Source of the DNA: Rickettsia typhi
GTDB taxonomy: Bacteria; Pseudomonadota; Alphaproteobacteria; Rickettsiales; UBA1997
Assembly (NCBI GenBank): GCA_945862535.1
Contig: CAMAYG010000008.1
Coordinates: 1-61,420, forward strand
DNA length: 61,420 nucleotides
Direction of reading: 5' to 3'
Under the pieces are notes generated by a model. It ran no database searches. It saw nothing but the letters and a program-made list of their open reading frames with translations, and was not told the origin of the DNA. This document shows positions 22,662-38,782 of this stretch, piece by piece. Position numbers and translations under genes: made by a program. Every line of letters begins with the position of its first letter. Position 1 is the stretch's first letter.

Positions 22662-23669
22662 ATGAATTTGAAGTTTATTGACCTTTTCGCTGGAATCGGT
22701 GGAATCCGTCTTGGTTTTCAAGAGCTTGGTAAATGTGTTTTTTCTTCGGAGTGGGATAAGTTTGCACAAATTACTTATGAAGCAAACTTTGGTTACAAAC
22801 CGCAGGGAGACATTATGCAAATTCACGAAACAGACATACCGAGCTTTGATATTTTGCTTGCAGGGTTTCCTTGTCAACCTTTCTCAAATGCAGGGTTAAA
22901 AAAAGGATTTGAAGATACAAGAGGAACTTTATTTTTTGATATTGCACGAATAATAAACTTTCACAAACCAAAAGTTGTATTTTTAGAAAATGTTAAAGCA
23001 TTAAAAACACACAACAAAGGAAATACATATAAAACAATTGAAAACACGTTGCAAGATTTTGGCTATACTGTTTATATGCAAATATTAAATGCCCGTGATT
23101 TTGGTGTTCCGCAAAATAGGGAAAGAATTTATATTGTGGGTTTTTTGGAAAATATTGACTTTAAATTTCCAAAACCATTGAAGCAAAAAATAACTCTGGG
23201 TGACATCTTAGAAGAAAGTGTTTTAGAAAAATACACTATTTCAAATAAGCTTTGGGCAGGACATCAAAGAAGAAAAGAAGAACATAAACAAAAAGGCAAT
23301 GGATTTGGTTATTCGCTTTTTAATCATAATTCACAATATACAAGCACCATTTCTGCAAGATATTATAAAGATGGTTCAGAGATTTTAATTGAACAAGAAG
23401 GAAAAAATCCAAGAAAATTAATACCAAGAGAAGCGGCAAGATTACAAGGATTCCCTAATAATTTCATAATTCCCGTAAGTGATAATCAAGCTTATAAACA
23501 GTTTGGAAATAGTGTTGCAGTTCCCGTTGTAAAAGCAATTACAAAACAAATACAACAAGCGCTAATCAATCCAAGAACTGCCTACAAAACACAAACATTA
23601 GATTTATTCAAAAATACAAATACATTACATGAAAATTCAAAAGATACAAATATCTCAAGAAAAAATTGA
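22662..23669 (+). CDS. DNA (cytosine-5) methyltransferase, second type II R-M
   Basis: C5-cytosine methyltransferase of 335 residues. Motif I DLFAGIGGIRLGFQ is at the N-terminus, motif IV AGFPCQPFSNAG carries the catalytic Cys near residue 71, motif VI is LENVKAL, motif VIII PQNRERIYIVG, IX REAARLQGFP and X YKQFGNSVAVPVV. It is of the Dcm-like group and clearly different from the methyltransferase at 2565. The gene sits between pgsA and ileS and overlaps the following endonuclease gene by 41 bases. Its sequence uses fewer of the CTCGAC/ATCGAT-like words frequent in neighbouring housekeeping genes, which is compatible with transfer. Recognition site unknown. Confidence 0.93.
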   Translation: MNLKFIDLFAGIGGIRLGFQELGKCVFSSEWDKFAQITYEANFGYKPQGDIMQIHETDIPSFDILLAGFPCQPFSNAGLKKGFEDTRGTLFFDIARIINFHKPKVVFLENVKALKTHNKGNTYKTIENTLQDFGYTVYMQILNARDFGVPQNRERIYIVGFLENIDFKFPKPLKQKITLGDILEESVLEKYTISNKLWAGHQRRKEEHKQKGNGFGYSLFNHNSQYTSTISARYYKDGSEILIEQEGKNPRKLIPREAARLQGFPNNFIIPVSDNQAYKQFGNSVAVPVVKAITKQIQQALINPRTAYKTQTLDLFKNTNTLHENSKDTNISRKN

Positions 23670-24648
23670 TATTAATTTACAGTTTTACTGTTTTTTGAAA
23701 TATACGGTCAAGCTTAAACCAAGCGCACAACAGGTTTCAAAAATTATAGAGGAATATGGTTTATTAAAAGACAGTGCGAATCTTTTTAGTCAAAAACTTG
23801 AAGAAATATTCACAACAAAATCCAAGAAAACAAAGCATAATGCGAAGCTTGAAATGGTGCAAGATATGATTGCAAGATTTCAAAAAGAAAAGGATATTGA
23901 ATTATTTGTTTTTGGTCTCAAACTTTATCAAATTAAAGACCTACTCTTACAGGAAGCAAAGATAACAGAAAGCACGGATATACAAAAGCTTGGGAATATT
24001 AATCCTCTTTCCCTTGAATATGATAGAATTTCTGTTTTAAAACCATATACAACAAGGGTAAGCGGGGCTTTGCTTGCATTGTTATTTTTTGATAAAATTG
24101 AGAAAGGTGAGACAAATTTTATGTCAGAAAATGCTTATGATTTCTTGCAATCACTTTCACAAACGGCACTCAAATTTAAGAAAAATGGTTTAGAGCCGAA
24201 TCAAATTTTTATGTTAATGTTTTCGGAAGTTGTTAATCAATCTATTGTATCCGATTCAGGCACAAATTATGAAAGCAGGATACTTTCCGTTCTAAGCAAG
24301 AATGGCATTTTAAACATTGCAAAAACTCACGATAAAAATGATAAAAGCACGGAGTTTGATTTCTTCTTTGAAATTGACGGCAGAACATTTGGAATTGGTG
24401 CAAAAAGAACTTTACGCAAAAGGTATAAACAGTTTATTAAAACTGCTATTACAAGCAAAATTGATGTAATGATTGAAATTACACTTGGCTTGGATTTAAA
24501 TGAGGAAAAAGCTAAAACTATTATAGCGCATGGAACTTATTTATTTGTTGCCGATGAAGTATATCAAACAAGAGATTTTTTGCAAAAACTTGATAAGGTA
24601 TTTTCTGTAAAAGATTTGAATTTAACAAATTTAGTCAGCCTTAAATAA
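23629..24648 (+). CDS. Type II restriction endonuclease (partner of the overlapping C5 methyltransferase)
   Basis: A 339-residue protein inferred to be the restriction enzyme of this R-M unit. It overlaps the methyltransferase 3' end by 41 bases, which is typical of coupled R-M genes. A likely PD-(D/E)XK core lies around residues 240-270: STEFDFFFEIDGRTFGIGAKRT gives an acidic residue, then a beta hairpin, then Gly-Ala-Lys in the position of the E-X-K (the Glu is replaced). The N-terminal half is helical and Lys/Gln-rich. I do not recognise a named family. If the altered catalytic motif is real, activity should be tested rather than assumed. Confidence 0.65.
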   Translation: MKIQKIQISQEKIDINLQFYCFLKYTVKLKPSAQQVSKIIEEYGLLKDSANLFSQKLEEIFTTKSKKTKHNAKLEMVQDMIARFQKEKDIELFVFGLKLYQIKDLLLQEAKITESTDIQKLGNINPLSLEYDRISVLKPYTTRVSGALLALLFFDKIEKGETNFMSENAYDFLQSLSQTALKFKKNGLEPNQIFMLMFSEVVNQSIVSDSGTNYESRILSVLSKNGILNIAKTHDKNDKSTEFDFFFEIDGRTFGIGAKRTLRKRYKQFIKTAITSKIDVMIEITLGLDLNEEKAKTIIAHGTYLFVADEVYQTRDFLQKLDKVFSVKDLNLTNLVSLK

Positions 24649-24744
24649 TATTGACAATAAATAATCAAAACTTTATTTTAGGGGTTATTTATTGTAATTA
24701 AAACACCTTAAAACCTTAGAGTGCAAAATCGAAATCAAAGCATA

Positions 24745-26133
24745 ATGAAAAAAACCTATTATCCGCAAGCCAATCAAAACCTCGATCTAGCAAAAATGGA
24801 GCAAGAAATATTGGCTTTTTGGCAAAAAGAACAAATATTTGAAAGATCGGTCTATAATCGCAATGTTGCAAGCTACGAAGAGGCGGAAGACAACACTTCG
24901 CCTGTTATTAATAGTTGTAGCCTTAACGATCATAAAAATTGTCGCCATAGCAACGATAACAGCCAAGAAACGGCAAAACAATTTGTCTTTTACGACGGCC
25001 CGCCTTTTGCCAATGGCTTGCCTCACTACGGCCACTTACTTACAGGATTCATTAAAGATATTTTTGCCCGCTATCAAACCATGAAAGGCAATAAAGTCGA
25101 AAGAAGATTCGGCTGGGACACACACGGGCTACCCGTTGAAATGGAAACCGAGAAAGAGCTAACCTCTATTCACAATAAGCCAATTGCTGGTCAATTAGCA
25201 ATTCAAGAATTTGGAATCGATAAATTTAACGAAGCTTGCGAAAAATCGGTTATGAAATATGCCGATAAATGGGAAGAATATGTAACCAAACAAGGCCGTT
25301 TTGTTGATTTTGGCAATAGCTATAAAACTATGGATCTTGGCTATATGGAATCGGTAATTTGGGCCTTTAAGGAGCTATATAAAAAGGGTTTAATTTATAA
25401 TAAATTACGAGTCGTGCCCTATTCTTGGGCTTGCCAAACCCCGCTTTCTAACTTCGAAACCCGCATGGACAATGCCTATCGCCAAAAGGAAAGCAAAGCG
25501 GTTACCCTAAAATTTTACCTAAAAAATATCACCAAATTAATTGCCGATCTTGTCAATAAAAACAAGCAAAACACCGGAATTTTTAGCAAAATTAATTTTG
25601 ATAAAGGCGATTCCCATAAAGGCAATGGCGAAAAAGATTTAACAGAAGCAAATAACCTCGATGCCATTAAGTCAATTGCAATGCTAGTTTGGACTACAAC
25701 CCCCTGGACTCTGCCTTCTAATTTAGCGGTGGCAATTAACCGCAACATTAGCTATTCGCTAATTATTACCAAAGAACAGCAGGAAAACGGTGCCACAGAA
25801 GCATTAATAATTGCGAGCAATCTTATTAAGCGATACCAAAAAGAGCTAGAAGGTGCAAAAATTGTGGCGATGCTAAGCGGTCAAGACTTAATTGGCTTAC
25901 AATATCAGCCGATATTTCCATTTTTAGTAAATAAGCCAGAGGTTCTGTCTGCTAAAAACTGCTTTACTGTTATTGATGCAGATTTCGTCTCGACCGAAGA
26001 CGGAACGGGCATTGTCCATATTGCTCCGGGCTTTGGCGAAGAAGACCAAATTGTTTGCGAAAAATATCGAATTCCAACTGTTTGTCCCGTCGATGAAGCT
26101 GGTAGATTTACCAGTGACATCGACAATATTTAA
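24745..26133 (+). CDS. ileS: Isoleucyl-tRNA synthetase, N-terminal fragment
   Basis: First 462 residues of IleRS (full length about 1000), which charges tRNA-Ile. The class I HIGH-type motif is GPPFANGLPHYGHLLTG, followed by ERRFGWDTHGLPVEME. The CP1 editing domain begins with VVPYSWACQTPLSNFET and includes TTTPWTLPSN and GTGIVHIAPGFGEED. The frame stops within CP1, just after PVDEAGRFTSDIDN. The KMSKS motif, anticodon-binding domain and C-terminus are missing. The motif set resembles the eukaryote-like IleRS class found in Rickettsia. ATG at 24745 is preferred over a GTG at 24721. The stop lies inside a tandem-repeat scar that separates it from the convergent dnaE fragment. Alone it cannot be an active synthetase. 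Confidence 0.9.
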   Translation: MKKTYYPQANQNLDLAKMEQEILAFWQKEQIFERSVYNRNVASYEEAEDNTSPVINSCSLNDHKNCRHSNDNSQETAKQFVFYDGPPFANGLPHYGHLLTGFIKDIFARYQTMKGNKVERRFGWDTHGLPVEMETEKELTSIHNKPIAGQLAIQEFGIDKFNEACEKSVMKYADKWEEYVTKQGRFVDFGNSYKTMDLGYMESVIWAFKELYKKGLIYNKLRVVPYSWACQTPLSNFETRMDNAYRQKESKAVTLKFYLKNITKLIADLVNKNKQNTGIFSKINFDKGDSHKGNGEKDLTEANNLDAIKSIAMLVWTTTPWTLPSNLAVAINRNISYSLIITKEQQENGATEALIIASNLIKRYQKELEGAKIVAMLSGQDLIGLQYQPIFPFLVNKPEVLSAKNCFTVIDADFVSTEDGTGIVHIAPGFGEEDQIVCEKYRIPTVCPVDEAGRFTSDIDNI

Positions 26134-26277
26134 GCTGATGAAGCTGGTAGATTTAACATAGATTTACCATAAATTTCATAAATTTATGGGGCGACATCGA
26201 CAATATTTAAGCTGATGAAGCTGGTAGATTTAACATAGATTTACCATAAATTTCATAAATTTATGGGGCGACATCGA
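26092..26277. repeat. Tandem repeat scar at the ileS/dnaE junction, with hairpins
   Basis: Three head-to-tail units beginning GATGAAGCTGGTAGATTTA start at 26092, 26137 and 26214. Unit 1 (45 bp) is the end of the ileS frame. Unit 2 is 77 bp and has the same ends plus a longer centre. Unit 3 repeats unit 2 up to 26277 (GACATCGA), then diverges. The longer centre carries a perfect hairpin with 10-bp arms CCATAAATTT/AAATTTATGG and loop CAT, at 26167-26189 and again at 26244-26266. The repeats are visible directly. That they mark a recombination junction is inference from their place between two truncated genes. Confidence 0.9.
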
Positions 26278-26318
26278 AAAAAGCCTGTTGCTAATTGAAG
26301 AATATTTGATACAGAAAA

Positions 26319-28943
26319 TTAATTGGCGATTTTTTCGATTTTAAAATAAGAATCGCTCTCGTTCACATCGGGCATTAGAATTGGAATATTATGACTTTTT
26401 GCAACCTGAACAAAAATATTGATTTTTGCTTCGTTGTCGATATCTAGGTTCATTGAAGCGGTCAGAAATTCTGGCAAGAAGTGGGCTTTAAGAAAAGCGG
26501 TTTGATATGATATCATGGCATAAGCTGCGGCATGAGACTTGTTAAAACCGTAGCCAGCAAATTTATCTACCAAATTAAATATTTCATTGGCTTGTTTTTC
26601 ATTGATATTATTTTTGGCAGCCCCGCTCATAAATATTTCTCGCTGTTGGTCCATTTCTTCTTTAATCTTTTTGCCCATCGCTCGCCTTAGTAGATCTGCA
26701 CCGCCAAGGCTGTAACCCGCAAGAACCCTAGCAATTTCCATTACCTGCTCTTGGTAAACTATAACTCCGTAAGTTTCACTAAGGGTTTTGGCAAGTAGAG
26801 GGTGTGGATATTCTATCTTTTCCTCGCCATGTTTTCTGCGAATATAGGTTGGAATGTTATCCATAGGACCGGGGCGATATAACGAAATTAGGGCAATAAT
26901 ATCTTCTATTTTATCTGCTCGCATTTGTTTTAATACCGCTCTCATGCCCGAAGATTCTATCTGGAAAACTCCAATTGAATCGCCAGTAGCAAGCATTTCA
27001 AAGGTTGCCTTATCTTGTAAATCGATATTTTCTATTTCGATATCGATATTGCGAGTTGCCTTAATCAATTTAACAGTTTCAGCAATAACGGTAAGGGTTT
27101 TAAGGCCGAGGAAGTCGAACTTTACTAGGCCAGCATTTTCTGCATATTTCATTGAATAGCCAACCGCGGGCATTTCTGCTCCTTCATCGCAATATAAAGC
27201 ACAAATTTCTGCCAGAGGTTTGTCGCCAATCACCACTCCTGCCGCATGAGTAGAAGCATGACGATTTAAGCCTTCGAGCTTTAAAGCAATGTCAACCAAT
27301 TTTGCTACCTGTTCGTCTTCGGCGATGGCATTTTGCAAGTCTTTGTCCATTGAAATGGCTTTTTCTAGAGTTACGGCCTCTACAGCATTAAACGGAATAA
27401 GTTTGCAAATTCTATCTACTTGATTATAGGGCATTTGCAACACTCTACCAACATCTTTCAAGACTGCTCTTGCTTGCAATTTACCAAAAGTTATGATTTG
27501 GGCGACATAAATTTGCGAAACCTTCTGAGAACAATTGTTAATTTCTGCTGTTATAGCACTAATGTTGCTGTTAACATTAAGATTAGCGGTTTTAGTGTTA
27601 TATCGATTTTGCACATAGGTTATTACTTCGTCACGGCGAGACTGACAAAAATCGATATCAAAATCGGGCATTGAAACCCTTTCTGGGTTAAGGAATCTTT
27701 CAAAAAGCAGGCCAAAGCGAATTGGATCTAGATCGGTAATTTGTAGCGACCAAGCAACTAAGGAACCAGCACCAGAGCCACGACCTGGCCCCACGGGAAT
27801 TTGCTGACCTTTTGCCCATTTTATGAAATCTGATACTATTAGAAAATAGCCGGGGAATTGCATTTTGATAATAACTTCTAGCTCGAAATCTAGTCTTTCC
27901 TGATATTCGCTAGTAATTTTTTCTTGATCGTTTTTGCTAGTATTTTCGTTGATAAACTTCTTTTTTAGGCGATTTGTTAAGCCTTCATTTGCCTGAGACC
28001 GCAAGAAATCTGCCTCGCTAAAATTAGGATCGCTGTTAAATTTTGGCAATGTTGGTAATCTTTCATTGGCAATTACAGTACATTTTTTGGCGATATTGAT
28101 AGTATTAGCAATAGCTTCTGGGATGTCGATAAATTTTTCCATTATCCTTTCTGGGCTTTGAAAAAATTGCTCGGGAGAGATTTTTTTATGATTAGCATCG
28201 GACAGGGTAAGGCCTTCGCCGATACATGCTAATATCTCTTGAGCCTCGTAAATATTGGGCTCTAGGAAGTAGGCATCTATCGTTGCCACTAGTGGCAAAT
28301 TCTTTTGCAATGCTAAATTAATTAATTTATCTTCGATTTTTTGTTCGGCAACAAGGTTGTTGCGGCTTATTTCGAGGTAAAAATCTCCTTTTGGGAAAAT
28401 ATTGGTAATATTGCCGATAATATTGGCTAATGTTTCTTCTTGATTGTTGTTAAGTAGCCTGCCAACAATGCCATCAACACCTCCAGAAAGGGCAATCAAA
28501 CCTTCGCTATAGAGGCTAAGAAGCGAAAAATTTATGTGGGGCCTAACCCCAGCAATGCGGTTAATAAAACTATAACTAACTAAATGCATTAAATTTTTAT
28601 AGCCCTGTTCGTTGCGGGCAATTAATGGCATTTTAACTAAAGAATTTTCTGTCTCTAGGTGGTTTTGCTGATTATTGGGTTTTTTATTATTAGAGGTTTT
28701 TAAGCCATTGACGGCAGAAGTTTCTAGTGCCGAGAAGTTGACCAGCATTTCTGCACCAATAATAGGCTGAATCCCCGATTTTTTGCAGGCACTAGAAAAT
28801 TCTAGTGCCCCAAAGAGGTTTTGAGAATCGCAAATTGCCAAAGCTGGTATTTTTAGCTCTTTAGCTTTATTTACCAAATCGCTAATTCTTATTGCACCGC
28901 TTGCTAAAGAAAATGTGGTATGGTTGCGAAGGTTAATAAACAA
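26319..28943 (-). CDS. dnaE: DNA polymerase III alpha subunit, N-terminal part (PHP, palm, thumb, fingers)
   Basis: First 874 residues of the replicative polymerase alpha subunit, usually about 1150. Present are the PHP domain (N-terminal NLRNHTTFSLASGA and LAICDSQNLFGALEF), the GPGRGSGAGSLVAW motif, and the catalytic aspartates in MPDFDIDFCQSRRDEV around residue 400 and in KFDFLGLKTL. The fingers region FAGYGFNKSHAAAYAMISYQTAFLKAH is also present. The frame ends with TAA after MPDVNESDSYFKIEKIAN, just before the RFALGAIKAVG segment that begins the separate C-terminal gene at 36660-37868. The start is TTG at 28943, 21 bases after skp. No intein sequence is present at the break. All catalytic residues are in this part. 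Confidence 0.93.
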   Translation of the reverse strand: MFINLRNHTTFSLASGAIRISDLVNKAKELKIPALAICDSQNLFGALEFSSACKKSGIQPIIGAEMLVNFSALETSAVNGLKTSNNKKPNNQQNHLETENSLVKMPLIARNEQGYKNLMHLVSYSFINRIAGVRPHINFSLLSLYSEGLIALSGGVDGIVGRLLNNNQEETLANIIGNITNIFPKGDFYLEISRNNLVAEQKIEDKLINLALQKNLPLVATIDAYFLEPNIYEAQEILACIGEGLTLSDANHKKISPEQFFQSPERIMEKFIDIPEAIANTINIAKKCTVIANERLPTLPKFNSDPNFSEADFLRSQANEGLTNRLKKKFINENTSKNDQEKITSEYQERLDFELEVIIKMQFPGYFLIVSDFIKWAKGQQIPVGPGRGSGAGSLVAWSLQITDLDPIRFGLLFERFLNPERVSMPDFDIDFCQSRRDEVITYVQNRYNTKTANLNVNSNISAITAEINNCSQKVSQIYVAQIITFGKLQARAVLKDVGRVLQMPYNQVDRICKLIPFNAVEAVTLEKAISMDKDLQNAIAEDEQVAKLVDIALKLEGLNRHASTHAAGVVIGDKPLAEICALYCDEGAEMPAVGYSMKYAENAGLVKFDFLGLKTLTVIAETVKLIKATRNIDIEIENIDLQDKATFEMLATGDSIGVFQIESSGMRAVLKQMRADKIEDIIALISLYRPGPMDNIPTYIRRKHGEEKIEYPHPLLAKTLSETYGVIVYQEQVMEIARVLAGYSLGGADLLRRAMGKKIKEEMDQQREIFMSGAAKNNINEKQANEIFNLVDKFAGYGFNKSHAAAYAMISYQTAFLKAHFLPEFLTASMNLDIDNEAKINIFVQVAKSHNIPILMPDVNESDSYFKIEKIAN

Positions 28944-28964
28944 GACAATCGGCGGATGCTATTG

Positions 28965-29537
28965 TTATTCGAATTTTACTTCGACTTTTTCTATTGCTTT
29001 GTTAAGCTTAGATATTACATCGACAGAAATGTCGAGCGATTCTTCGTAAAATATTGCCTGACTATTGTTAAGAACAACTTGGAAAGATTTTTCTTTGGCG
29101 ATATCGCTAACAACCTTTTTTAGAACTTCGTTAACTTTACTAACCGCTTCTAGCGAAGATTTTTGTAGGATGGCCTGCCTTTTTTCAACATAAACTTTGA
29201 AGTCTTCAACTTTTTTATTAAAAACCTGCTCTTCTTTGGCAAATTTTTCTTTAGAAAGAGTGTTTTTTTTGCTTTCGATCTTTCTTTTTTCTTCTTCTAG
29301 GCTAGTCTGCTTTTTATTTACTTCTTTTTGATATTCTTCTTGCTTTTTTACCACTTTATTTTGGATGTCGTTCATCGCTAAAGATTCTTTAAGAACTTTT
29401 TCGGCATCTATTACCGCAATATTATTAGCGGCATTGGCACTATTAACATTTAAGCAAAGTGTTGTAAAGGCTAGAACGGCTAAGAATTTTTTGAAACTCT
29501 TGTTAAAGACAGTTTTTGCACTCAAGAATGTTTTCAT
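28965..29537 (-). CDS. skp: Periplasmic chaperone Skp/OmpH
   Basis: A 190-residue chaperone that holds unfolded outer-membrane proteins on the way to the BAM complex. It has a signal peptide ending SANA near residue 36, then a short beta strand IAVIDAEKVLKES. A long Lys/Glu-rich coiled coil (about 55-140) forms the tentacles, and a C-terminal strand reads FQVVLNNSQAIFYEES. It is normally next to bamA; here it precedes dnaE by 21 bases and may be co-transcribed with it. Confidence 0.9.
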   Translation of the reverse strand: MKTFLSAKTVFNKSFKKFLAVLAFTTLCLNVNSANAANNIAVIDAEKVLKESLAMNDIQNKVVKKQEEYQKEVNKKQTSLEEEKRKIESKKNTLSKEKFAKEEQVFNKKVEDFKVYVEKRQAILQKSSLEAVSKVNEVLKKVVSDIAKEKSFQVVLNNSQAIFYEESLDISVDVISKLNKAIEKVEVKFE

Positions 29538-29742
29538 TGGAAAATATTTGAAATTATAAATTTAATGGTGATAGTGAATTATTAATACCGCCTCTATGTT
29601 TAAATATAAGGATTACTTAATGTTTTAAGCATAAAATGGTATAATTTGGGATAGGATCCTAAAATTAAAAATTCTTACTAACTAGATAATTAGAAATATT
29701 TTTTTAAATTTCAAATATTTTTTACAAAATAATTAAAGTCAA

Positions 29743-31185
29743 ATGAACTATTGCAAAATAAAGCAAAAACAAACGGAGCCTTTAGTTGGAAATAAAAATA
29801 AAATTCTAGAAGACCAAGAAAGTATTTTGTCACAGCTAGAAAAAGAGATTTTGCACTCAAAGGAACTTGGGCTAGAGCGAAAATTTGTGAGCTACAACCA
29901 TCTAGTAAAATCATTATCCCTGCCAGAAAATTTTGAGCCAGAAAATTTTGAGCCAGAAAATTTTGAGCCAGAAAATTTTAGGCCAAAAGAATTGAGTCTG
30001 GATACCGCAAAGCAAATATTTGATAGCCACAATTTTAACAATAAGCCAATAATTTCCTTTATCGCCAATGATTATTTTGCCTTATCTGGCAATAAAGATA
30101 TTATTGCAACAGCGCAAAAAGCCATTGGCGAATCTGGCTTTGGTGCCGGATCTTCGATTTTCTTGGGTGGAATGCATCAATATTATCAACAATTTATCAA
30201 AAAACTTACTAAATTTAAAAAATGTCAGGCGGGTCTAGTATTTCCTTCGGGCTATCAGGCGGTAATTGGTGTGATTTCGGCATTATGCAATGAGAAAGAT
30301 TTGATTATTGCCGACAAATTCATTCATCAATCGCACATTGCTGGTGCAAAATTAAGCGGAGCAAAATTTTACCGCTTTAAACATAACGATATCAGCCATT
30401 GCCAGTCTTTATTAGCAAATTACCGCAAAGAATTTCGTCGTTGTTTTATTATAAGCGAAACAATATTTTCAATGGATGGAGATTGTGGCAATATTGCAGA
30501 ATTATGGGATTTGGCTCAAAAATATTCTGCCAATTTAATAGCTGACGATGCTCACGGCTTGGGGTTGGTCGATTATTCTGGTTTCTTTAGCCAAAGCAAT
30601 GGCAATAGTCAATATTTACAAATTGGCACGATGTCGAAAGCCTTGGCATCGATAGGGGGCTATGTTGTTGGCTCGGAGCTAATGATAGAATATTTGCAAA
30701 ATTTTGCTAAATCGGCAATTTACACTACGGCATTGCCCGCTTCGGCACTAGCTGTAGCAACTATTGCTTTAACTAAAATTGCAGAAGGTGGCGAACTTAT
30801 TAGCAATGCCATTAATAATAAAAGATTATTCTGTCAGATTTTCAGCGATTATGCTAATAAAATATTAGAGCAAGACAAAATAGCACCAAATCAGGCTAGC
30901 TCAAGCAATATTAACAAGTTGCGGTTAGCAAAAATTGTTACAGAAATATTAATTGCTAAAGAGGAAGAATCTTTGATTGTTCCAATCATAATTGGCGAAA
31001 ATCGCCAAGTGCTAGAAATTGCTAGGAAGGTCGCCGAAAATGGCTTTTTAATTGGGGCAATCCGCCCGCCTACGGTTCCGCCATCAACAGCAAGGCTAAG
31101 AATTACCTTTAACTCACAAATTCCAAAAAAATCAATTGACACTTTAGCTAAATTATTGGTAGAATTAATTATCAATTTCGATTAA
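29743..31185 (+). CDS. bioF: 8-amino-7-oxononanoate synthase (BioF) with repeat-bearing N-terminal extension
   Basis: PLP enzyme of the alpha-oxoamine synthase family. BioF condenses pimeloyl-ACP/CoA and L-alanine in biotin synthesis. Motifs are SGYQAVIGVISAL, DDAHGLGLVDYSG, TMSKALASIGGYVVG with PLP Lys299, FAKSAIYTTALPAS, and the C-terminal IGAIRPPTVPPSTARLRI, which favours BioF over 5-aminolevulinate synthase. At 480 residues it is about 90 longer than usual. The extension (about 1-85) contains four copies of a 15-bp unit encoding ENFEP-like repeats. No other bio genes are nearby, so an ALAS or 2-amino-3-ketobutyrate ligase role is not fully excluded. Confidence 0.75.
   Translation: MNYCKIKQKQTEPLVGNKNKILEDQESILSQLEKEILHSKELGLERKFVSYNHLVKSLSLPENFEPENFEPENFEPENFRPKELSLDTAKQIFDSHNFNNKPIISFIANDYFALSGNKDIIATAQKAIGESGFGAGSSIFLGGMHQYYQQFIKKLTKFKKCQAGLVFPSGYQAVIGVISALCNEKDLIIADKFIHQSHIAGAKLSGAKFYRFKHNDISHCQSLLANYRKEFRRCFIISETIFSMDGDCGNIAELWDLAQKYSANLIADDAHGLGLVDYSGFFSQSNGNSQYLQIGTMSKALASIGGYVVGSELMIEYLQNFAKSAIYTTALPASALAVATIALTKIAEGGELISNAINNKRLFCQIFSDYANKILEQDKIAPNQASSSNINKLRLAKIVTEILIAKEEESLIVPIIIGENRQVLEIARKVAENGFLIGAIRPPTVPPSTARLRITFNSQIPKKSIDTLAKLLVELIINFD
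29923..29982 (+). repeat. Four tandem 15-bp units inside bioF
   Basis: The unit CCAGAAAATTTTGAG is repeated at 29923, 29938, 29953 and 29968; the last copy ends AGG. It stays in frame and adds ENFEP pentapeptides to the N-terminal extension. Copy number could vary between strains by slippage without breaking the frame. Confidence 0.95.
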
Positions 31186-31210
31186 TTTATATATTCAAAA
31201 TCTTTTCACT

Positions 31211-31531
31211 ATGCTAACAATATCAACTTCTGCCAATGACAGAATTAAGCAAATCAAAGAAACGAATCCGAGCAATTTACTAAGAATAGCCATAGATAGC
31301 GGTGGTTGCAATGGTTTTAAATATTTGTTTTCTATCGACTCTAATATTAAAGAGGAAGACAAAATCATTAACGAAGGCAATGAAGCTATGATTGTTGTCG
31401 ATGCAATATCGCTAAAGTTTCTAGAAAACTCTACCCTCGAATTTGTCAAGGAATTAGGAGCGACCTATTTTAAAATTAGCAACCCCAATGCTACCAGCAC
31501 CTGCGGTTGCGGTAGCTCCTTTGCCACCTAG
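31211..31531 (+). CDS. erpA: A-type iron-sulfur carrier (ErpA/IscA)
   Basis: A 106-residue carrier that receives Fe-S clusters from the assembly scaffold and passes them to apoproteins. The three ligand cysteines are in place: C33 in GGCNGFKY, and C98 and C100 in STCGCGSSF. No other isc genes are here. It lies 25 bases after bioF on the same strand and ends before a strong hairpin at 31671. Confidence 0.93.
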   Translation: MLTISTSANDRIKQIKETNPSNLLRIAIDSGGCNGFKYLFSIDSNIKEEDKIINEGNEAMIVVDAISLKFLENSTLEFVKELGATYFKISNPNATSTCGCGSSFAT

Positions 31532-31670
31532 GCTATTTTTTGCCAAAGTAACAAGTTGGTACAATAATCTATCTACTTCTGCAATTTTCGCCCTAAATTT
31601 GTGGGTTTTGCAACTTCGAGAGCAAGGATGATAGAAGTGTAGGCGGAGTTTTGCGAAAAGACCGATTAAT

Positions 31671-31701
31671 TTTTTGCTAAATCGTTGTTATTTAGCAAAA
31701 A
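31671..31701. terminator. Bidirectional terminator-like hairpin
   Basis: A perfect 12-bp inverted repeat, arms TTTTTGCTAAAT/ATTTAGCAAAAA with a 7-base loop, sits between the convergent erpA (ends 31531) and the minus-strand methyltransferase (ends 31707). The A/T tracts at both ends provide a U-tract in either direction, although the stem is A+T-rich and the GC clamp is weak. Confidence 0.6.
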
Positions 31702-31706
31702 TAGCA

Positions 31707-32915
31707 TCACTCATCATAAAAACCTCCTTTTATAATTTCGTTTTCAATTAAATCTGTTCTTAAATTTAAGGCACTATTTGTCGACAAGAAAGCCACTTCG
31801 TGCCATTTTATATTGTTGACAAAAATATCTGTTAACAATTTTTGTTTCTGCAAAAAAACAACTCCGTAACCTCTTTTATTTGGTAATTCTAAGCAAGATT
31901 TATAGGCTTTCATCCCGCTAAAACAAGTAGAAGGTAAATAGACATGGCATTTTTCGAGCATTGCCTTATTTCTTGTGCTAGAAGGAGTTCCGCCATCTGA
32001 TAACGAATAAACTCTGGCAATGGTTTTGCAGGTTCTTTTTGTGGCAAATCTGATGTTTTCTGTTTTTATCTTAGTCCATATTTGAAAAATAGTCGCAATA
32101 TCAACTTTGGTGCCATTAGGATACTCAAAAGAATCGCGAGGAAGTTTTTCGCTATAAGCCAATTTATAACCAGCAACTCTCTTCATCGGCACTCCTTTGC
32201 CGGTGCTATCAAAAAGTGGCGGTAGGATAAAAGCAACAACATCGGCAAAATCATTAGAATGATTAATAAATCTTAGGGCAAGATTGCCTCTTAAACCAAA
32301 TGGAGGATTGCCTATAACAATATATTTTTTAGCTTTTTCTGGGGTGTAATCTAGGTAATTAGTACAAATTAGCTCTTGTGCTAGTTCGCCTTTTGGCTCT
32401 ATGTCGATACCAATTCTGCGATCTTCAGGCAATATATTGTAAAAACTACAACAGCCAGCACTTGGTTCGATAAAAATATAATCTTTGCAGTCTATTTTAA
32501 GATCTTTTAAAACCTCTAAAGTTTTGTTATAACAGTAAGAAGAAATTTCCTTAGTGGTGTAGAATTGATCTTTCTGCCTATAGCTATTTTTCATCTTATA
32601 TTTATTACCAAGCAATCTATTTAAATCGTTGAAATAATTATCGGGAACTTTATTTTGCTTTAGCCAGCGGTTTATTGTCCCTCGATGTATAGATAGGCTA
32701 TTTTCAATATCTTGAATGGTAAATATCTTGAGTAATTCGCTAAATAAATCGAAGGCATTATTTTCTTGCCACTGTTCTTTGGTATTGGCATTTAAGCTTT
32801 TAGAGCATTTAATTACTTCGGCAAGGCTCATTTGTTGAATCTTTGGCAAGAAATATTGTTGTTGGCTATTGTTTGAGCTGGTGTTTGATATTGTTGGTTT
32901 AGCTCTATTTGTCAT
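31707..32915 (-). CDS. DNA adenine-N6 methyltransferase-like protein with N-terminal HTH
   Basis: A 402-residue protein with a SAM-binding EPSAG motif at 150-154, acidic IDIEPKG at 170-176 and the catalytic NPPF at 203-206, the arrangement of N6-adenine amino-methyltransferases. An N-terminal helix-turn-helix-like stretch (about 66-87, FTIQDIENSLSIHRGTINRW) resembles small DNA-binding domains and could direct the enzyme or autoregulate it. The C-terminal half is unknown. No nuclease gene is adjacent, since the neighbours are the terminator and icd, so it looks like an orphan methyltransferase, phage-like or regulatory. It is distinct from the methyltransferase at 35428. Confidence 0.75.
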   Translation of the reverse strand: MTNRAKPTISNTSSNNSQQQYFLPKIQQMSLAEVIKCSKSLNANTKEQWQENNAFDLFSELLKIFTIQDIENSLSIHRGTINRWLKQNKVPDNYFNDLNRLLGNKYKMKNSYRQKDQFYTTKEISSYCYNKTLEVLKDLKIDCKDYIFIEPSAGCCSFYNILPEDRRIGIDIEPKGELAQELICTNYLDYTPEKAKKYIVIGNPPFGLRGNLALRFINHSNDFADVVAFILPPLFDSTGKGVPMKRVAGYKLAYSEKLPRDSFEYPNGTKVDIATIFQIWTKIKTENIRFATKRTCKTIARVYSLSDGGTPSSTRNKAMLEKCHVYLPSTCFSGMKAYKSCLELPNKRGYGVVFLQKQKLLTDIFVNNIKWHEVAFLSTNSALNLRTDLIENEIIKGGFYDE

Positions 32916-32926
32916 CGACTAGATTT

Positions 32927-34153
32927 TTAAACATAATAAGATTGCAAATTGCCAGCTATTTTATCGATAAAATCTTCGGTATATAAATAATGTTCGCCAT
33001 GCTTAACATTGTTACCAAAGGCACAAATTGCTAGGTCTTTGGTCATGTAACCGCTTTCGACGGTTTTAATGCAAGAATTTTCGAGGTTCTGGCAAAAATC
33101 GATTAATTGCTGATTGCCGTCGATCTTACCGCGGAAAGCAAGTCCGCGAGTCCAGGCGAATATTGAAGCAATAGGGTTGGTAGAGGTTGGTCTGCCTTGT
33201 TGATGTTCGCGGAAATGCCGAGTTACCGTGCCGTGTGCCGCTTCTGCTTCCATTATTTTGCCATCTGGGGTAATTAATACCGAGGTCATAAGCCCTAAGG
33301 AGCCAAAGCCCTGAGCAACACTGTCGGACTGCACATCGCCATCGTAATTTTTACAAGCCCAAATAAAACCGCCTCGCCATTTAAGGGCGGAAGCAACCAT
33401 ATCGTCAATTAAGCGATGTTCGTAGACAATATTTTTAGCGATAAATTGTTCCTTGAATTGACTTTCGTAGATCTCTTGAAATATATCTTTGAAACGGCCG
33501 TCGTATTTTTTAAGTATAGTGTTTTTAGTAGATAAATAAAGCGGCCAAGATTTTTGCAAAGCCAAATTAAAGCAAGATAAAGCAAAGCCTCGAATCGATT
33601 CGTCGACATTATACATTGCCATGGCTACACCTGAGCTGGTAAAATTAAAGACTTCTTGCTCTGTTATTTTGCCATCTTCGCCACGAAATTGTAAAAACAA
33701 CTTGCCAGCACCAGAAACCTCTATTTCGCTTGCCTTATATTGATCGCCAAAAGCATGGCGACCAACGATAATTGGGGTATCCCAATTTCTAACAAGCCTT
33801 GGGACATTTTTGCAAACAATAGGCTCGCGAAACACTGTGCCATCGAGGATGTTACGGATTGTCCCATTAGGAGATTTGTAGATTTCTTTAAGATTAAATT
33901 CTTTTTTGCGGGCTTCATCTGGGGTAATTGTGGCACATTTAATACCAACCTGATATTCCTTTATGGCATTGGCGGCATCAATTGTTACCTTATCTGCCGT
34001 GGCATCGCGATTTGGCAAGCCAAGATCGAAATATTTGATTTCTAGGTCTAAAAATGGCAGAATAAGCTTGTTTTTGATAATTTGCCAAATTATACGGGTC
34101 ATTTCGTCGCCATCAAGCTCGACGACTGGGTTTTTAACAATAATTTTTTGCAT
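32927..34153 (-). CDS. icd: NADP-dependent isocitrate dehydrogenase (eukaryotic-type homodimer)
   Basis: TCA-cycle enzyme of 408 residues oxidising isocitrate to 2-oxoglutarate. It belongs to the mitochondrial/cytosolic-like NADP family: N-terminal [29 protein letters not shown], the substrate loop [47 protein letters not shown] and [17 protein letters not shown]. The window also holds a different, Rickettsia-type isocitrate dehydrogenase at 45214. This one ends 11 bases before the orphan methyltransferase start on the same strand. Confidence 0.95.
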
Positions 34154-34283
34154 TTGAGAAAATTTTAATAAATTTAGAGTTTAAAGGACTGTTTCACGAG
34201 ACCTTTGATTTGTTTAATTGTTGAGTTATTAAGTTAAAATATCGAAATAAAATAGCAAGATTTAGCAATATATTTAAAAAATA

Positions 34284-35399
34284 TTACTGGTTATTGTCGT
34301 TATTTACCATATCGGCAACAAATTCGTTAATTTTAGCAAATGTTACTCCGGGCATACAAATAATATGAGAAATCCCGCTATCGCTTGCTAATTGCCATTT
34401 TAGGCATATTTCTTTTTTTGGCTGAGGAAAGACAACGGTAATTGCATCGTGATTTCGCCAAGCTTTGATGCCAATCTTATTTAATTCTTCTTCGGCAAAA
34501 GCTGCAACTTTCAAAGATTCTTCGCCCCTTTTGCTTAGACCTTCGATACCATATTTCTTAATTGCATACCACAATAATATTGGGCTATGACCGTTGCGAG
34601 AGCCAGTGATTGTGGTGTCTGAAGTGCCGATATAGGGAATAATTCTGCCAATTCTTTCTTTGTAAGATTTTTTTACCACCACAACACCGCAAGGAATTGG
34701 CGAGCCAATAAATTTGTGTCCGCTAATTGCTACACTATCTGCACCTTCAACAAAGCTAAATTTTGGTTCTAATTTTAACAAAGCAGAATAAACCCCCGCA
34801 AGGGCCGCATCGCAATGTAGATAATAATTTTTAATTGCCGATTTCTTTAACACCGCCCTAATCTTGCTAATATCGTCTTTTGCTTCGGTCATTGTGGTGC
34901 CAATATTAGCAATGATAATAACTGGCTGATGGCGATGAAGCCTAATATTTTCTTGCAGATCGTCATAGTCAATTTCGCCATTTGCCAAGGCACAAACGAC
35001 AATGCTTGGCATATTAAGCAGATGAATATTTTTTTGAATACTATAATGTGTTGCCTCGGAATAATAAACCATTGCATTAGGGTAAAGCTCGCGAGCAACA
35101 TAGAGAGCATATAAATTGCCTTCGCTCCCGCCATTGGTAACATAGCCCCAACGATTATCAACAGGGGCTTCGAAAATATCGGCAAAGAAATTTACCACTT
35201 CTCTTTCCATCGATCGTGAATTGATGTCGTAGGTTGATTCTATTAGCGGGTCGCCCAAATTATTAAGTGGATATTTTAATAATTCGAGCAATTCTTGATA
35301 GTCGAAATCTGTTGCGACGGGGTAACCAAGAAAATGTTGCGATCTTGCCTTAACCTTGTTAATATATTCTGCGATTAGCTCTTGATAGTTGTTAGTCAT
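34284..35399 (-). CDS. hdc: Histidine decarboxylase (PLP-dependent)
   Basis: Group II PLP decarboxylase of 371 residues. The best match by motif and length is bacterial histidine decarboxylase, which releases CO2 from histidine to form histamine. Visible landmarks are YVTNGGSEGNLYALYVARE, the cofactor-stacking His118 in SEATHYSIQKN, D197 in YLHCDAALAG, and the Schiff-base Lys229 in ISGHKFIGSP. The N-terminal HFLGYPVATDFDY is typical of the HDC subgroup, as is the length near 375. No antiporter gene for histidine/histamine exchange is adjacent. Serine decarboxylase, a close relative, is an alternative substrate class. Confidence 0.82.
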   Translation of the reverse strand: MTNNYQELIAEYINKVKARSQHFLGYPVATDFDYQELLELLKYPLNNLGDPLIESTYDINSRSMEREVVNFFADIFEAPVDNRWGYVTNGGSEGNLYALYVARELYPNAMVYYSEATHYSIQKNIHLLNMPSIVVCALANGEIDYDDLQENIRLHRHQPVIIIANIGTTMTEAKDDISKIRAVLKKSAIKNYYLHCDAALAGVYSALLKLEPKFSFVEGADSVAISGHKFIGSPIPCGVVVVKKSYKERIGRIIPYIGTSDTTITGSRNGHSPILLWYAIKKYGIEGLSKRGEESLKVAAFAEEELNKIGIKAWRNHDAITVVFPQPKKEICLKWQLASDSGISHIICMPGVTFAKINEFVADMVNNDNNQ

Positions 35400-35427
35400 T
35401 TGTTTGTGGTTGTATTTATCTTATAGA

Positions 35428-36402
35428 TTATGCCAAGAAATAAACTTGATTAATTACATCTCTTGCTAGGGCATAGTCAAGCCTTCTTCTGTATTTATTA
35501 TCTTTTCTCAAGCCTTTAAATGGTGTTAGAAATATATCGTAAGTTTCTTTTCTAAATCCATTTAACATTTCGTTAAGATTTTTAATTAATTTTTCAATAT
35601 CACAATCAATCAAACTAGCTGATCTTCTGGCAATTGAAATTCTGGTGATGCTTCTTGAAGAACTGCCAACCTTTTCGGGGTTTATTTCATTGCCATTACA
35701 AAATCTGATAGAAGCCTCGATTGTGTTATCAATTGCAATTAATCCAATTTTTCCAGCTTTGTCGTTAAATTTCATTTCAACTTTATTTTCTGCTTTTGGC
35801 AGTTTTTTTTCAAATTCGCTTAATTTTCCAATAAATTCTCTGTCTTGATATAGATCTACATCTTTAGACTGCCCTTTAAACAATGCAAGACAAACCGGAT
35901 GCTCTGTGTCGTTAAACATTTTGCCATTTAGCAAAATATAGTGCGAAAGCCTATCTCTAAAAAGTTGCGAATTGAGAAAAGAAGCCGGAATTATCGCCCC
36001 AACATTTTTACAATTTTCTAAACATTTATCAAGTGCAAATTTATATAAATCATCATATTTGGTCTTAGGATAAAATAAACCCCGTCTTTTGGCAGAATTT
36101 TGAGCCAAATAAGGGGGGTTGGTTATGCAGATATCGTGATTGCTAGGAAAATCTTTTAAAGTATCTTTAAATAACACATTTTCGTCTTTTGGCTCTATAT
36201 CGTAAGAAATAAAATTATTGCACAAACCCATATTTTGAAGCATCTTGATTAGATTGTTGCTTCCTGCGAAAGGCTCTAAAATAGTGTTTTCTTCTAAATT
36301 ACACTCATTTGCCCAGTCTTGAAAGGCTTTATTGTCAAAGGGATTATATTGAGTAAAATACTGGCCTTTTGTTCTTTTGTTGTCGATAAAATCAAATAAC
36401 AT
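35428..36402 (-). CDS. DNA adenine-N6 methyltransferase (NPPY type), no nuclease partner seen
   Basis: Site-specific adenine methyltransferase of 324 residues from the ATG at 36402; a GTG at 36414 would add four. The KGQYFTQ segment near the N-terminus is typical of the N6-adenine gamma class. Motif I is ILEPFAGSNNL (about 41-51 from the ATG) and the catalytic NPPY is at 95-98. A C-terminal target-recognition region ends YALARDVINQVYFLA. Neither neighbour (hdc, dnaE C-terminus) is a nuclease. A fused nuclease domain is not evident at this length. It is the fourth DNA methyltransferase of the window. Confidence 0.82.
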   Translation of the reverse strand: MLFDFIDNKRTKGQYFTQYNPFDNKAFQDWANECNLEENTILEPFAGSNNLIKMLQNMGLCNNFISYDIEPKDENVLFKDTLKDFPSNHDICITNPPYLAQNSAKRRGLFYPKTKYDDLYKFALDKCLENCKNVGAIIPASFLNSQLFRDRLSHYILLNGKMFNDTEHPVCLALFKGQSKDVDLYQDREFIGKLSEFEKKLPKAENKVEMKFNDKAGKIGLIAIDNTIEASIRFCNGNEINPEKVGSSSRSITRISIARRSASLIDCDIEKLIKNLNEMLNGFRKETYDIFLTPFKGLRKDNKYRRRLDYALARDVINQVYFLA

Positions 36403-36611
36403 AATATCTAACACAATTAATTAATAACATATCAAAAATATTTTGATTATTTTGTTGTTATATTTAAAACAACATTCTTAGATACAGGATTTTAGGCACC
36501 TGTTACTATTTTTGCAAAACACTAATTATGTCGTTATAATTCTTAGCTATTAGTCGCTTTGATATATTTTATAATAAGTAGAATTTCAAGTGTCAAGAAC
36601 TGCTTTACTAA

Positions 36612-36636
36612 TTAATCGGGCATATTAATCGGGCAT
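36612..36636. repeat. Short tandem direct repeat upstream of the methyltransferase
   Basis: TTAATCGGGCAT occurs at 36612-36623 and again at 36625-36636 in the 245-base spacer between the dnaE C-terminal gene and the methyltransferase start. Repeated half-sites near a methyltransferase promoter can be controller-protein or autoregulation sites. That is only a possibility; slippage duplication would look the same. Confidence 0.5.
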
Positions 36637-36659
36637 TGGGACTGCTTTTTGGACTACTT

Positions 36660-37868
36660 TTAACTAGTAAGATTGTTGATTTTTTTAATTTCGGTGATTC
36701 CTTGTAAGTTTTTTAGAATTTTTATTTCTTCAATTGATAGTTGATATTGTTGATTTAATGCAATTCTGGCAGTGTTTTGGTGATTGATGATTTTAAGAAA
36801 AATAGTAATTTTTTGCAGATTATTACTAGTGATTTTTTCTAGCACAGATAAATTGCTTGGGTTAAAGGTGCGGTTTTCTAAAAAAGAGCTTAGGGCAACA
36901 ATCGCTTGGGGTGCATTAATTGCTATTTCTATCGTCATAGTCTTTTGTGCCAAAGGTTCTTGGCTAGTTTCTGGGGCAGGGTTGTTGATTTTATTTGCCT
37001 GAAAATTATTGTTTAAGTTGTTGTTTTTGGTAAAGTTTTTATTGTTGTTAAAACTTTTGTAGTTGCTTTTATTATTGACAATGTCTTCAAAAACCGTTGC
37101 TCGCGCCTTGGTGTTTTTTAGAAAATCGTCAAGAGAAGTGATTTTTTTGACTAAATTCCTTACTCCGCCTTCATCGATTTTAAGCAAATTCTCGACAACA
37201 ATTTGCGATCCGTCGTTAATAAGGTCGCGGGCATTGGTAATAATGCCTTCATCGAATATTGTTGTTTCATAGACTCCGTCGGTATCGGAAAGATAAACAT
37301 AAGCAAAACGACCCCTACCGCCAGAGCGATGCCTACTTGCCGTTACTACTCCTGCCATTTTGACAATATCGCCATCTTTTAAGTCTTCGCGATCGAGGCG
37401 AGAAGAAAAAATTACCCCTCTTTTTTGCAAATCTTCTTTTACCCGATCTAGCGGGTGCTGTTTAGGAAAAAAGCCAAAAGCGGTAAATTCGTGCCTAAGT
37501 TTCTCTTCCTCTTCCCAATCGGCAACCTTTTTTAATTGTGGTTTTTTATTTTCAACAATGCCACCGCCAAAAAAGGTCATTTGATTTGAGGTCTTGGCAA
37601 GGTTTTGCTCGGCAGAATAGGCACTAATTACCTCGAAAGATTCGGCAATTTGTCGGCGATTGCTGTGAATTTTGTCGAATGCACCAGCTTTAGACAATGC
37701 TTCAATCGACTTTTTATTAATTAGCCTTGGCTCTATTCTTTCGGCAAGATGGTAAATATCCTTAAATTTTCCGCCAGAATTTCTTTCTTTAACCATTTCC
37801 TCCATTGCCCCAATGCCTACGGCTTTAATTGCCCCAAGGGCAAATCTTATTGCATATTTTTCACTCAT
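36660..37868 (-). CDS. dnaE: DNA polymerase III alpha subunit, C-terminal part
   Basis: A 402-residue gene carrying the end of the alpha subunit. It begins at RFALGAIKAVGIGAMEEMV, the segment that normally follows PDVN-S-F, and so continues almost exactly where the 26319-28943 gene stops. It holds helix-hairpin-helix DNA contacts, a clamp-binding motif QMTFFGG (about 97-103), an OB fold (IVKMAGVVTASRHRSGGRGRFAYVYLSD) and a degenerate Asn/Lys-rich tau-binding tail. It has its own ATG with an AAGG Shine-Dalgarno overlapping the COQ9 stop, 5 bases upstream, so it is likely translated in that operon. The two dnaE parts are in swapped order on the minus strand, 7.7 kb apart. Confidence 0.92.
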   Translation of the reverse strand: MSEKYAIRFALGAIKAVGIGAMEEMVKERNSGGKFKDIYHLAERIEPRLINKKSIEALSKAGAFDKIHSNRRQIAESFEVISAYSAEQNLAKTSNQMTFFGGGIVENKKPQLKKVADWEEEEKLRHEFTAFGFFPKQHPLDRVKEDLQKRGVIFSSRLDREDLKDGDIVKMAGVVTASRHRSGGRGRFAYVYLSDTDGVYETTIFDEGIITNARDLINDGSQIVVENLLKIDEGGVRNLVKKITSLDDFLKNTKARATVFEDIVNNKSNYKSFNNNKNFTKNNNLNNNFQANKINNPAPETSQEPLAQKTMTIEIAINAPQAIVALSSFLENRTFNPSNLSVLEKITSNNLQKITIFLKIINHQNTARIALNQQYQLSIEEIKILKNLQGITEIKKINNLTS

Positions 37869-37873
37869 TGACC

Positions 37874-38782
37874 TTACTTCTTAGAATTGTAATAAAGCCT
37901 AATAAAAGGCAATTTTCGGGCTAATTCTTGTAATTTCAAAACAATGTCGTTATTTAAATTGGTGTTTGCATTATTCGCTGTGCTCTTTTGCCATTGTGTT
38001 TTGCGGCTTTTGCTGTTGCGGGCCTTATGTGCCGATTCGTCTTCCGTTTGGTAATTTTGTTGATTATTGCAATTGTTGCAAATTTTAGTGGCAAAATTGT
38101 TGATTTTATTTTTTAGTTGATATTTAACACGGCTAAAATTGTTGATTTTTGCTATTTCCTTGTCGATAAATTGGTGAGAATTGTAGTGGTTAATGCTTTT
38201 GTCATAAGCGATTATTGGCAATAATTGATAGATTATTTTGGTAAGAATTAGTCTTTTGCTATAAAAATTATAATCTAGACTGGTATCGAAAATGCTAAAC
38301 CAAATATTATTGGCAAAAAGGTAGGAATATTTGGTGATAACAAAGTCTGTTACCATAAAACTAGGCCTAGAGCCAGTATAATTGCAATGTTTTTCAAGAT
38401 ATGCAGTAATTATCCAAGGGTTTTTTGCCAAAATTTCTACCAAAATATTTAAGGCGAGAGCAATTTTTTTGCTAATTGATTTATTGGCTAAAATTGCCGA
38501 TGAGCTAGCCATTTCATTGGCTATTTTATTTTCAAGATCGCTGTTTAAATGCAAACAATGGTAAGAGAAAAAATCGACCAATTTATTTGGAAAATAAAGC
38601 AAATAAAAATCTTCTTCGTGACTCGTGGTAAGATTAAGATTTTTGCAGGCTAATTTTATAGCAGAAGTGAGGAAGTCTTTATTGGTGTAATCTTGATGGT
38701 TATTAACAATTGCAAGGGTTTCTTGGTAAATTGCCAATTTTTCTCGATCGAAATTAAAGTCTGTCATTTGTAGCTCCTTCAT
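37874..38782 (-). CDS. COQ9-family ubiquinone biosynthesis protein
   Basis: Lipid-binding accessory protein for ubiquinone synthesis (family COQ9, TetR-like fold). The 302-residue protein has the helical N-terminus with YLLYFPNKLVDFFSYH, the central NPWIITAYLE, and the family signature IFDTSLDYNFYSKRLILTKIIYQ (typically D-x-S-x-D-F-N-x-Y-T-K-R-x2-L). A Cys/Asn-rich insertion follows (about 215-260). The restricted occurrence of COQ9 in alphaproteobacteria and mitochondria supports the lineage call. It follows nadK and precedes the dnaE C-terminal gene by 5 bases. Assignment is by motif only. Confidence 0.65.
   Translation of the reverse strand: MKELQMTDFNFDREKLAIYQETLAIVNNHQDYTNKDFLTSAIKLACKNLNLTTSHEEDFYLLYFPNKLVDFFSYHCLHLNSDLENKIANEMASSSAILANKSISKKIALALNILVEILAKNPWIITAYLEKHCNYTGSRPSFMVTDFVITKYSYLFANNIWFSIFDTSLDYNFYSKRLILTKIIYQLLPIIAYDKSINHYNSHQFIDKEIAKINNFSRVKYQLKNKINNFATKICNNCNNQQNYQTEDESAHKARNSKSRKTQWQKSTANNANTNLNNDIVLKLQELARKLPFIRLYYNSKK

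Follow-up and report, generated by a model that had tools for sequence, protein, structure and literature searches.

A dnaE gene in two parts, without an intein, in a family of Rickettsiales

The two parts of dnaE in the window

DNA polymerase III alpha, the product of dnaE, is represented by two separate genes on the minus strand of a contig of 61,420 nucleotides (nt) from a Rickettsiales genome (CAMAYG010000008.1, contig 8 of assembly GCA_945862535.1, a 1.54 Mb draft in 37 contigs, 93.48% complete), the whole of which is referred to here as the window. The N-part (26319–28943; 874 amino acids (aa); TTG start) encodes the PHP, palm, thumb and fingers regions and matches the Pfam domains PHP, DNA_pol3_alpha and DNA_pol3_finger. 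The C-part (36660–37868; 402 aa; ATG start) matches HHH_6 and encodes the second strand of a hairpin, tandem helix-hairpin-helix (HhH) motifs, the beta-clamp-binding motif, and the oligonucleotide-binding (OB) and C-terminal regions. A preliminary description of this DNA had proposed two translatable genes with these bounds and lengths, and both reading frames are indeed open, with fitting domains. When aligned to E. coli alpha, the N-part reaches residue 825, its last residues (SYFKIEKIAN) lying just past the first strand of the hairpin, and the C-part begins at residue 831, so that almost nothing of the protein has been lost; the near-complete coverage already described is borne out, the alignment breaking only between these two residues. 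The OB region of the C-part was aligned to 5fku up to residue 1077, and the C-terminal region was placed by fold match only, over ~390 columns.

Both sets of functional residues expected of alpha are present. Two Asp codons of the N-part, 427 and 429 (PDFDIDF; 27657–27665, minus strand), and a third, codon 610 (VKFDFLGLKT; 27114–27116, minus strand), which we take to be the catalytic residues from their place in the alignment with E. coli alpha, are invariant in 17/17 aligned N-parts. The C-part carries the clamp motif as QMTFF (consensus QMSLF; 37569–37583, minus strand), the Q and the last F of which are invariant in 21 aligned C-parts; a QxxxF motif was identified in 37 of 38 C-part rows, and in genome G014 the upstream piece carries QMNFF. 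The allocation of catalytic residues to one chain and clamp motif to the other, put forward earlier, is thus seen in the alignments. Across the two chains the DnaE1 domain set is complete (core and fingers with catalytic Asp, HhH, clamp motif, OB and C-terminal regions), although it is not carried on one polypeptide chain.

A COQ9-family gene (37874–38782, minus strand) lies directly upstream of the C-part, with a 5-nt gap; as had been noted, an AAGG overlaps its stop codon, and the C-part ATG follows 5 nt beyond that stop. No clear ribosome-binding site was seen before the TTG start of the N-part. The gene upstream of the N-part (28965–29537, minus strand) is presumably Skp/OmpH-like, a name given without a family scan, and a relative of it was found near the dnaE N-part in 11 of the 16 genomes with a divided dnaE whose surroundings were fetched. 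The C-part lies upstream of the N-part, and this swapped order is a local feature of the locus. The genome of the window (G000) has one match to PF07733 and one to the C-part, both inside the window, and no intact dnaE was found in this 93.48% complete assembly; an intact copy elsewhere had been named as the finding that would turn both parts into relics.

Distribution, cut point and origin of the division

Searches of 62 genomes of the family, with the C-part and separately with the N-part as query, divided the family into two types. With the C-part, 40 genomes gave a short frame of its own, four of which reach a contig end (G040, G063, G067 and G074), and 14 gave one long frame of 1213–1383 aa, i.e. 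an intact dnaE; two were cut by contig ends (G005, G050) and six were unmatched (G001, G013, G037, G044, G046 and G054). The N-part matched 52 of the 62 and left the division unchanged. The split type is found in nine genera (g1, the genus of the window, g2, g3, g5, g9, g10, g12, g13 and g14), the intact type in g4, g6, g7, g8 and g11, and no family genome listed in either search has both a full-length and a split frame. G004 has the two halves on a single contig of 767 kb, on the same strand and ~58 kb apart, N-part first, and in G070 (G070:C66:4256-7611, L130) they lie back to back with opposite transcription, with uppP on another contig; in the remaining genomes with both halves listed, these are on different contigs. 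Recurrence across the family rules out a recent rearrangement of a single genome. The rearrangement proposed in the preliminary description therefore stands for the gene order in the window, but not as a recent event of one genome, the fission being old and common to nine genera.

Beyond the family, 297 genomes of the order were searched; the matches listed include five C-part frames of <700 aa (G270, G144, G292, G279 and G082) and one of 910 aa (G216). The five short frames were considered as independent splits and rejected, since all of them run off contig ends. In a survey of 389 genomes of the class, the listed HHH_6 rows had frames of 1078–1329 aa except for four of 372, 389, 535 and 910 aa, two of which begin no more than 130 bases from where their contig starts; the C-part of the window itself scored below the listed rows, and diverged splits could be missed by this survey.

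The cut point is the same throughout. The stop position is shared by all 30 N-parts whose 3′ end is complete: 29 of them end 2–7 residues past the strand FSIE and that of G004 ends with FTVEAI; those of G003, G034, G055 and G070 are cut by contig ends. Among 38 C-parts (the 40 above minus G063 and G074, the 38th row being the downstream piece of G014), 37 start at an ATG 2–18 residues ahead of AIRFGL. The two hairpin strands are joined by a loop of 21 residues in eight intact family rows and of 32 in G009, the pattern being unmatched in five (G020, G045, G047, G048 and G049). C-parts of g3, g9 and g10 open with a remnant of this loop, e.g. MSTEVKKYDNNGKELAIRF compared to VKKYHEDKELAVRYG in intact g11. 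The cut is thereby located within the loop. With N-part tails of 2–7 and C-part heads of 2–18 residues there is no room for an intein, in agreement with the earlier statement that none is present, and no intein halves were identified at the break in the split genomes. In cyanobacteria, the halves of DnaE are spliced into one chain and the break lies at an FAEY/CFN site. The break here is not at that site: the corresponding FAGYGFNKSH is uncut inside the N-part, and the break lies ~75 residues further on.

Phylogenies of the two parts each separated the split rows, without exception, from the others at a single branch, with a Shimodaira–Hasegawa-like approximate likelihood ratio test (SH-aLRT) value of 99 for the N-part (53 rows, 830 columns) and 95 for the C-part (54 rows, 367 columns; G014 and G020 left out). 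In both trees g3, g9 and g10 group against the rest (98 and 93). Gene order agrees: uppP (PF02673) precedes the C-part on the same strand in 33 of the 38 genomes in which both were found, with gaps between the matches of <200 bp in 29, 210 bp in one and 699–831 bp in three. In 25 of the 29 loci measured, the C-part ATG lies −13 to +4 nt from the uppP stop, with a 4-nt overlap in seven, as expected of a translated, coupled gene; four loci are outside this range, among them the downstream piece of G014 (308 nt). In g1 (G000 and G002) the COQ9-family gene takes the place of uppP, and in G010, which like G043 belongs to g9, the C-part is preceded by a gene that we take to be gyrA-like. dnaE and uppP are on different contigs in the 11 intact genomes compared, which is weak evidence in drafts. 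The single group in both trees and the shared uppP order argue for one origin of the split, and by these comparisons the division is an old dnaE fission common to nine genera, with the C-part mostly located behind uppP.

Ratios of nonsynonymous to synonymous change (dN/dS; Nei–Gojobori counts, own script) were obtained for 14 same-genus C-part pairs, listed with the lowest synonymous difference first. The two closest pairs gave 0 and 0.03, and nine with dS of 0.2–0.93 gave 0.05–0.11. Listed N-part pairs (dS 0.38–0.95) gave 0.04–0.12, and one intact dnaE pair in that range (G008/G018) gave 0.06. Neither half displays the relaxed selection or lost active residues of a pseudogene; judged from these ratios, both are under purifying selection, the C-part being clearly constrained. 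The C-part of G014 (L081, G014:C49) has one in-frame TAA after QMNFFG, which may be a sequencing error, decay or the sign of a third piece; in G055, the other g12 genome with a C-part, the frame is open.

A two-chain alpha subunit and the alternatives

In a structural study of E. coli alpha, the rigid bodies are given as PHP (1–280), palm-fingers (281–432 and 510–810), thumb (433–509), tip-of-fingers (811–928) and tail (929–1160), with the clamp motif at 920–924 and the PHP domain as the site where the exonuclease binds (PMC4703070). The cut at 825/831 falls near the palm-fingers/tip boundary of this map. A structure model of the C-part had a mean predicted local distance difference test (pLDDT) score of 75.9, and its nine best PDB fold matches are DnaE-type polymerases.

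These data suggest that in the ancestor of the nine genera dnaE underwent a single cut within a variable hairpin at the protein surface (E. coli residues ~825–831), that the 3′ part then came to sit behind uppP, and that both halves were retained. One chain would be the polymerase core with the active site and PHP domain, the other, by the E. coli map, would contribute the tip of the fingers with its DNA-binding HhH, the beta-clamp motif, OB and the tau-binding tail. The chains would reassemble with no covalent bond, probably by pairing of the two retained hairpin strands along the old fingers/HhH interface, and clamp, DNA and tau may help to keep them together. In g1, the C-part would later have moved behind the COQ9-family gene. 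We assign a probability of about 0.85 to one ancient fission after which both chains were retained and come together again without splicing, their reassembly being the part that we infer; very probably the enzyme works as two chains clipping together, with no splicing element.

Several points weigh against this reading. The AlphaFold model of the N-part is unusable (mean pLDDT 51.7), and the interface between the chains is consequently a prediction. Both trees are quick searches with SH-aLRT values only, without bootstrap, and the C-part is unlinked to uppP in five genomes (G000, G002, G010, G043 and G070). Three C-part pairs with dS >1 gave dN/dS of 0.20–0.38 and C-part branches are longer than N-part branches, from which it appears that the C-part evolves somewhat faster; in G014 its frame is interrupted by the TAA described above. 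The family genomes are nearly all drafts (1–340 contigs), whose completeness limits what the absence of an intact dnaE can mean.

A different division of labour, in which the N-chain works as the polymerase by itself and the C-chain is a separate clamp/tau adaptor met only in the replisome, would suit a cut so near the border between two rigid bodies of E. coli alpha (PMC4703070), and some DnaE3 polymerases are described in a 2013 survey as having no C-terminal domain, or no OB either (PMC3919608). We consider it unlikely, as the C-part retains the hairpin strand and HhH block, its start point has barely shifted over nine genera, and according to the same survey almost every C-family polymerase has (HhH)2 in its chain (PMC3919608). 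It is very improbable that both parts are decaying relics and that an intact dnaE was missed by the assembly or another polymerase replicates the genome: the incompleteness of the window genome (93.48% complete) and the in-frame stop in G014 would allow for this, but full-length and split frames never occur together in one listed family genome, close pairs have dN/dS ratios roughly as low as intact dnaE, all 17 aligned N-parts share the catalytic Asp residues, and the clamp motif is retained.

Joining of the halves by RNA or protein trans-splicing through an unrecognised element has precedents in the intein-split cyanobacterial DnaE and in Nanoarchaeum PolB, which could be intein trans-spliced (PMC3919608 and PMC4104785, in the passages available), and is nevertheless extremely improbable here, where the short tails and heads at the break leave no space for an intein, the N-part ends in a stop codon and the C-part opens with a start codon of its own. 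An assembly artefact, raised earlier as a possible refutation, might be suspected from the half of ileS in the window and from the 77-bp tandem repeat beside the end of the dnaE N-part; its probability is negligible, with the split recurring in 40 family genomes and both halves lying within one contig in G004.

The preferred reading, a two-chain alpha without splicing, sets this dnaE beside known split polymerases yet outside the intein-split DnaE and PolB groups. Cyanobacterial DnaE likewise comes from two separate bacterial genes, but its halves carry intein parts and its break site is another one. Archaeal PolB is split in Methanobacteriales and Nanoarchaeum (PMC4104785); the Methanobacteriales PolB, whose division reportedly derives from erratic intein excision (PMC4104785), is also a replicative-type polymerase in split genes, but of family B and from archaea rather than of family C and from bacteria, and at the dnaE site examined here intact relatives have a short loop only. 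E. coli DnaE1, whose architecture is shared by 91% of the DnaE1 group in the 2013 survey (PMC3919608), has the same PHP, Pol3, (HhH)2, clamp motif, OB and C-terminal domain in one chain instead of two. That survey of ~2000 bacterial genomes has PHP, Pol3 and (HhH)2 nearly always in one polymerase, and the only split cases in the part available are those of cyanobacteria, due to inteins, and a handful of sequences in fragments, mostly owing to frameshifts (PMC3919608). Among the open-access papers listed, none describes a split DnaE free of inteins, which is weak evidence of absence; two candidate precedents were rejected on the text available, one being a symbiont lacking dnaE altogether (PMC7679464) and the other a fission of alaS (PMC5322561). 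A long-lived, intein-free cut in the core would show that a replicative polymerase can exist as two chains and would supply a natural split-polymerase design, and the lineage would serve as a system for how essential enzymes survive fission.

ileS and other features near dnaE

A second gene, ileS, is divided in the same genome. Its N-part (24721–26133, plus strand; 470 aa) lies in the window, and its C-part (G000:C3:39828-41819, L206:3826-5820, minus strand; 664 aa), which begins exactly at the segment following the N-part end, is inside contig 3 and is the single match to this half in the genome. Within g1, both halves are present in G000 and G002 and the C-half in G001, with one cut point; no ileS N-part was found in G001 (genome 79% complete). 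In most other genomes ileS is one frame of ~800–1057 aa, shorter frames not all having been checked for contig ends. Four comparisons gave dN/dS of 0.07–0.11, of which three have dS >2 and are unreliable. The motifs HYGH and KLSKR, presumably the HIGH-type and KMSKS-type catalytic signatures, are on different chains. The leucyl-tRNA synthetase (LeuRS) of Aquifex aeolicus is a class I synthetase of two subunits and in this resembles the split isoleucyl-tRNA synthetase (IleRS) here, although it is LeuRS that is split there. The clean division of ileS supports a tolerance of g1 genomes for clean fissions of central enzymes. From the sequences of both genes, an obligate two-chain polymerase III alpha without splicing, its one core fission stable across nine genera, plus an IleRS split likewise in one genus with signature motifs on different chains, appears likely.

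The IleRS C-part (L206:3826-5820) has an inserted GNAT acetyltransferase domain (PF13302), and IleRS matches also run through the GNAT stretch in G004, G014 and G054. LeuRS of the window genome (L099:4056-7358; 1100 aa) has a ~250-residue insert after the editing domain, which we take to be transglutaminase-like.

Between the ends of the ileS and dnaE N-parts lie two exact copies of a 77-bp hairpin-forming repeat (26116–26269); the fold of 26100–26300 has a z-score of −6. An inversion mediated by this repeat was considered as the origin of the divided dnaE and rejected: the repeat is at the ileS end, its sole other match in the genome is one of 22 bp, and the dnaE split is far older. Near the dnaE parts are also a C-5 cytosine methylase gene and a neighbour without Pfam match (22662–24648), a gene without Pfam match (31707–32915) and an Eco57I-type methylase gene (35428–36414). 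In the gene at 29743–31185, a 15-bp in-frame repeat close to the start (29922–29996) encodes a PENFE-type repeat.

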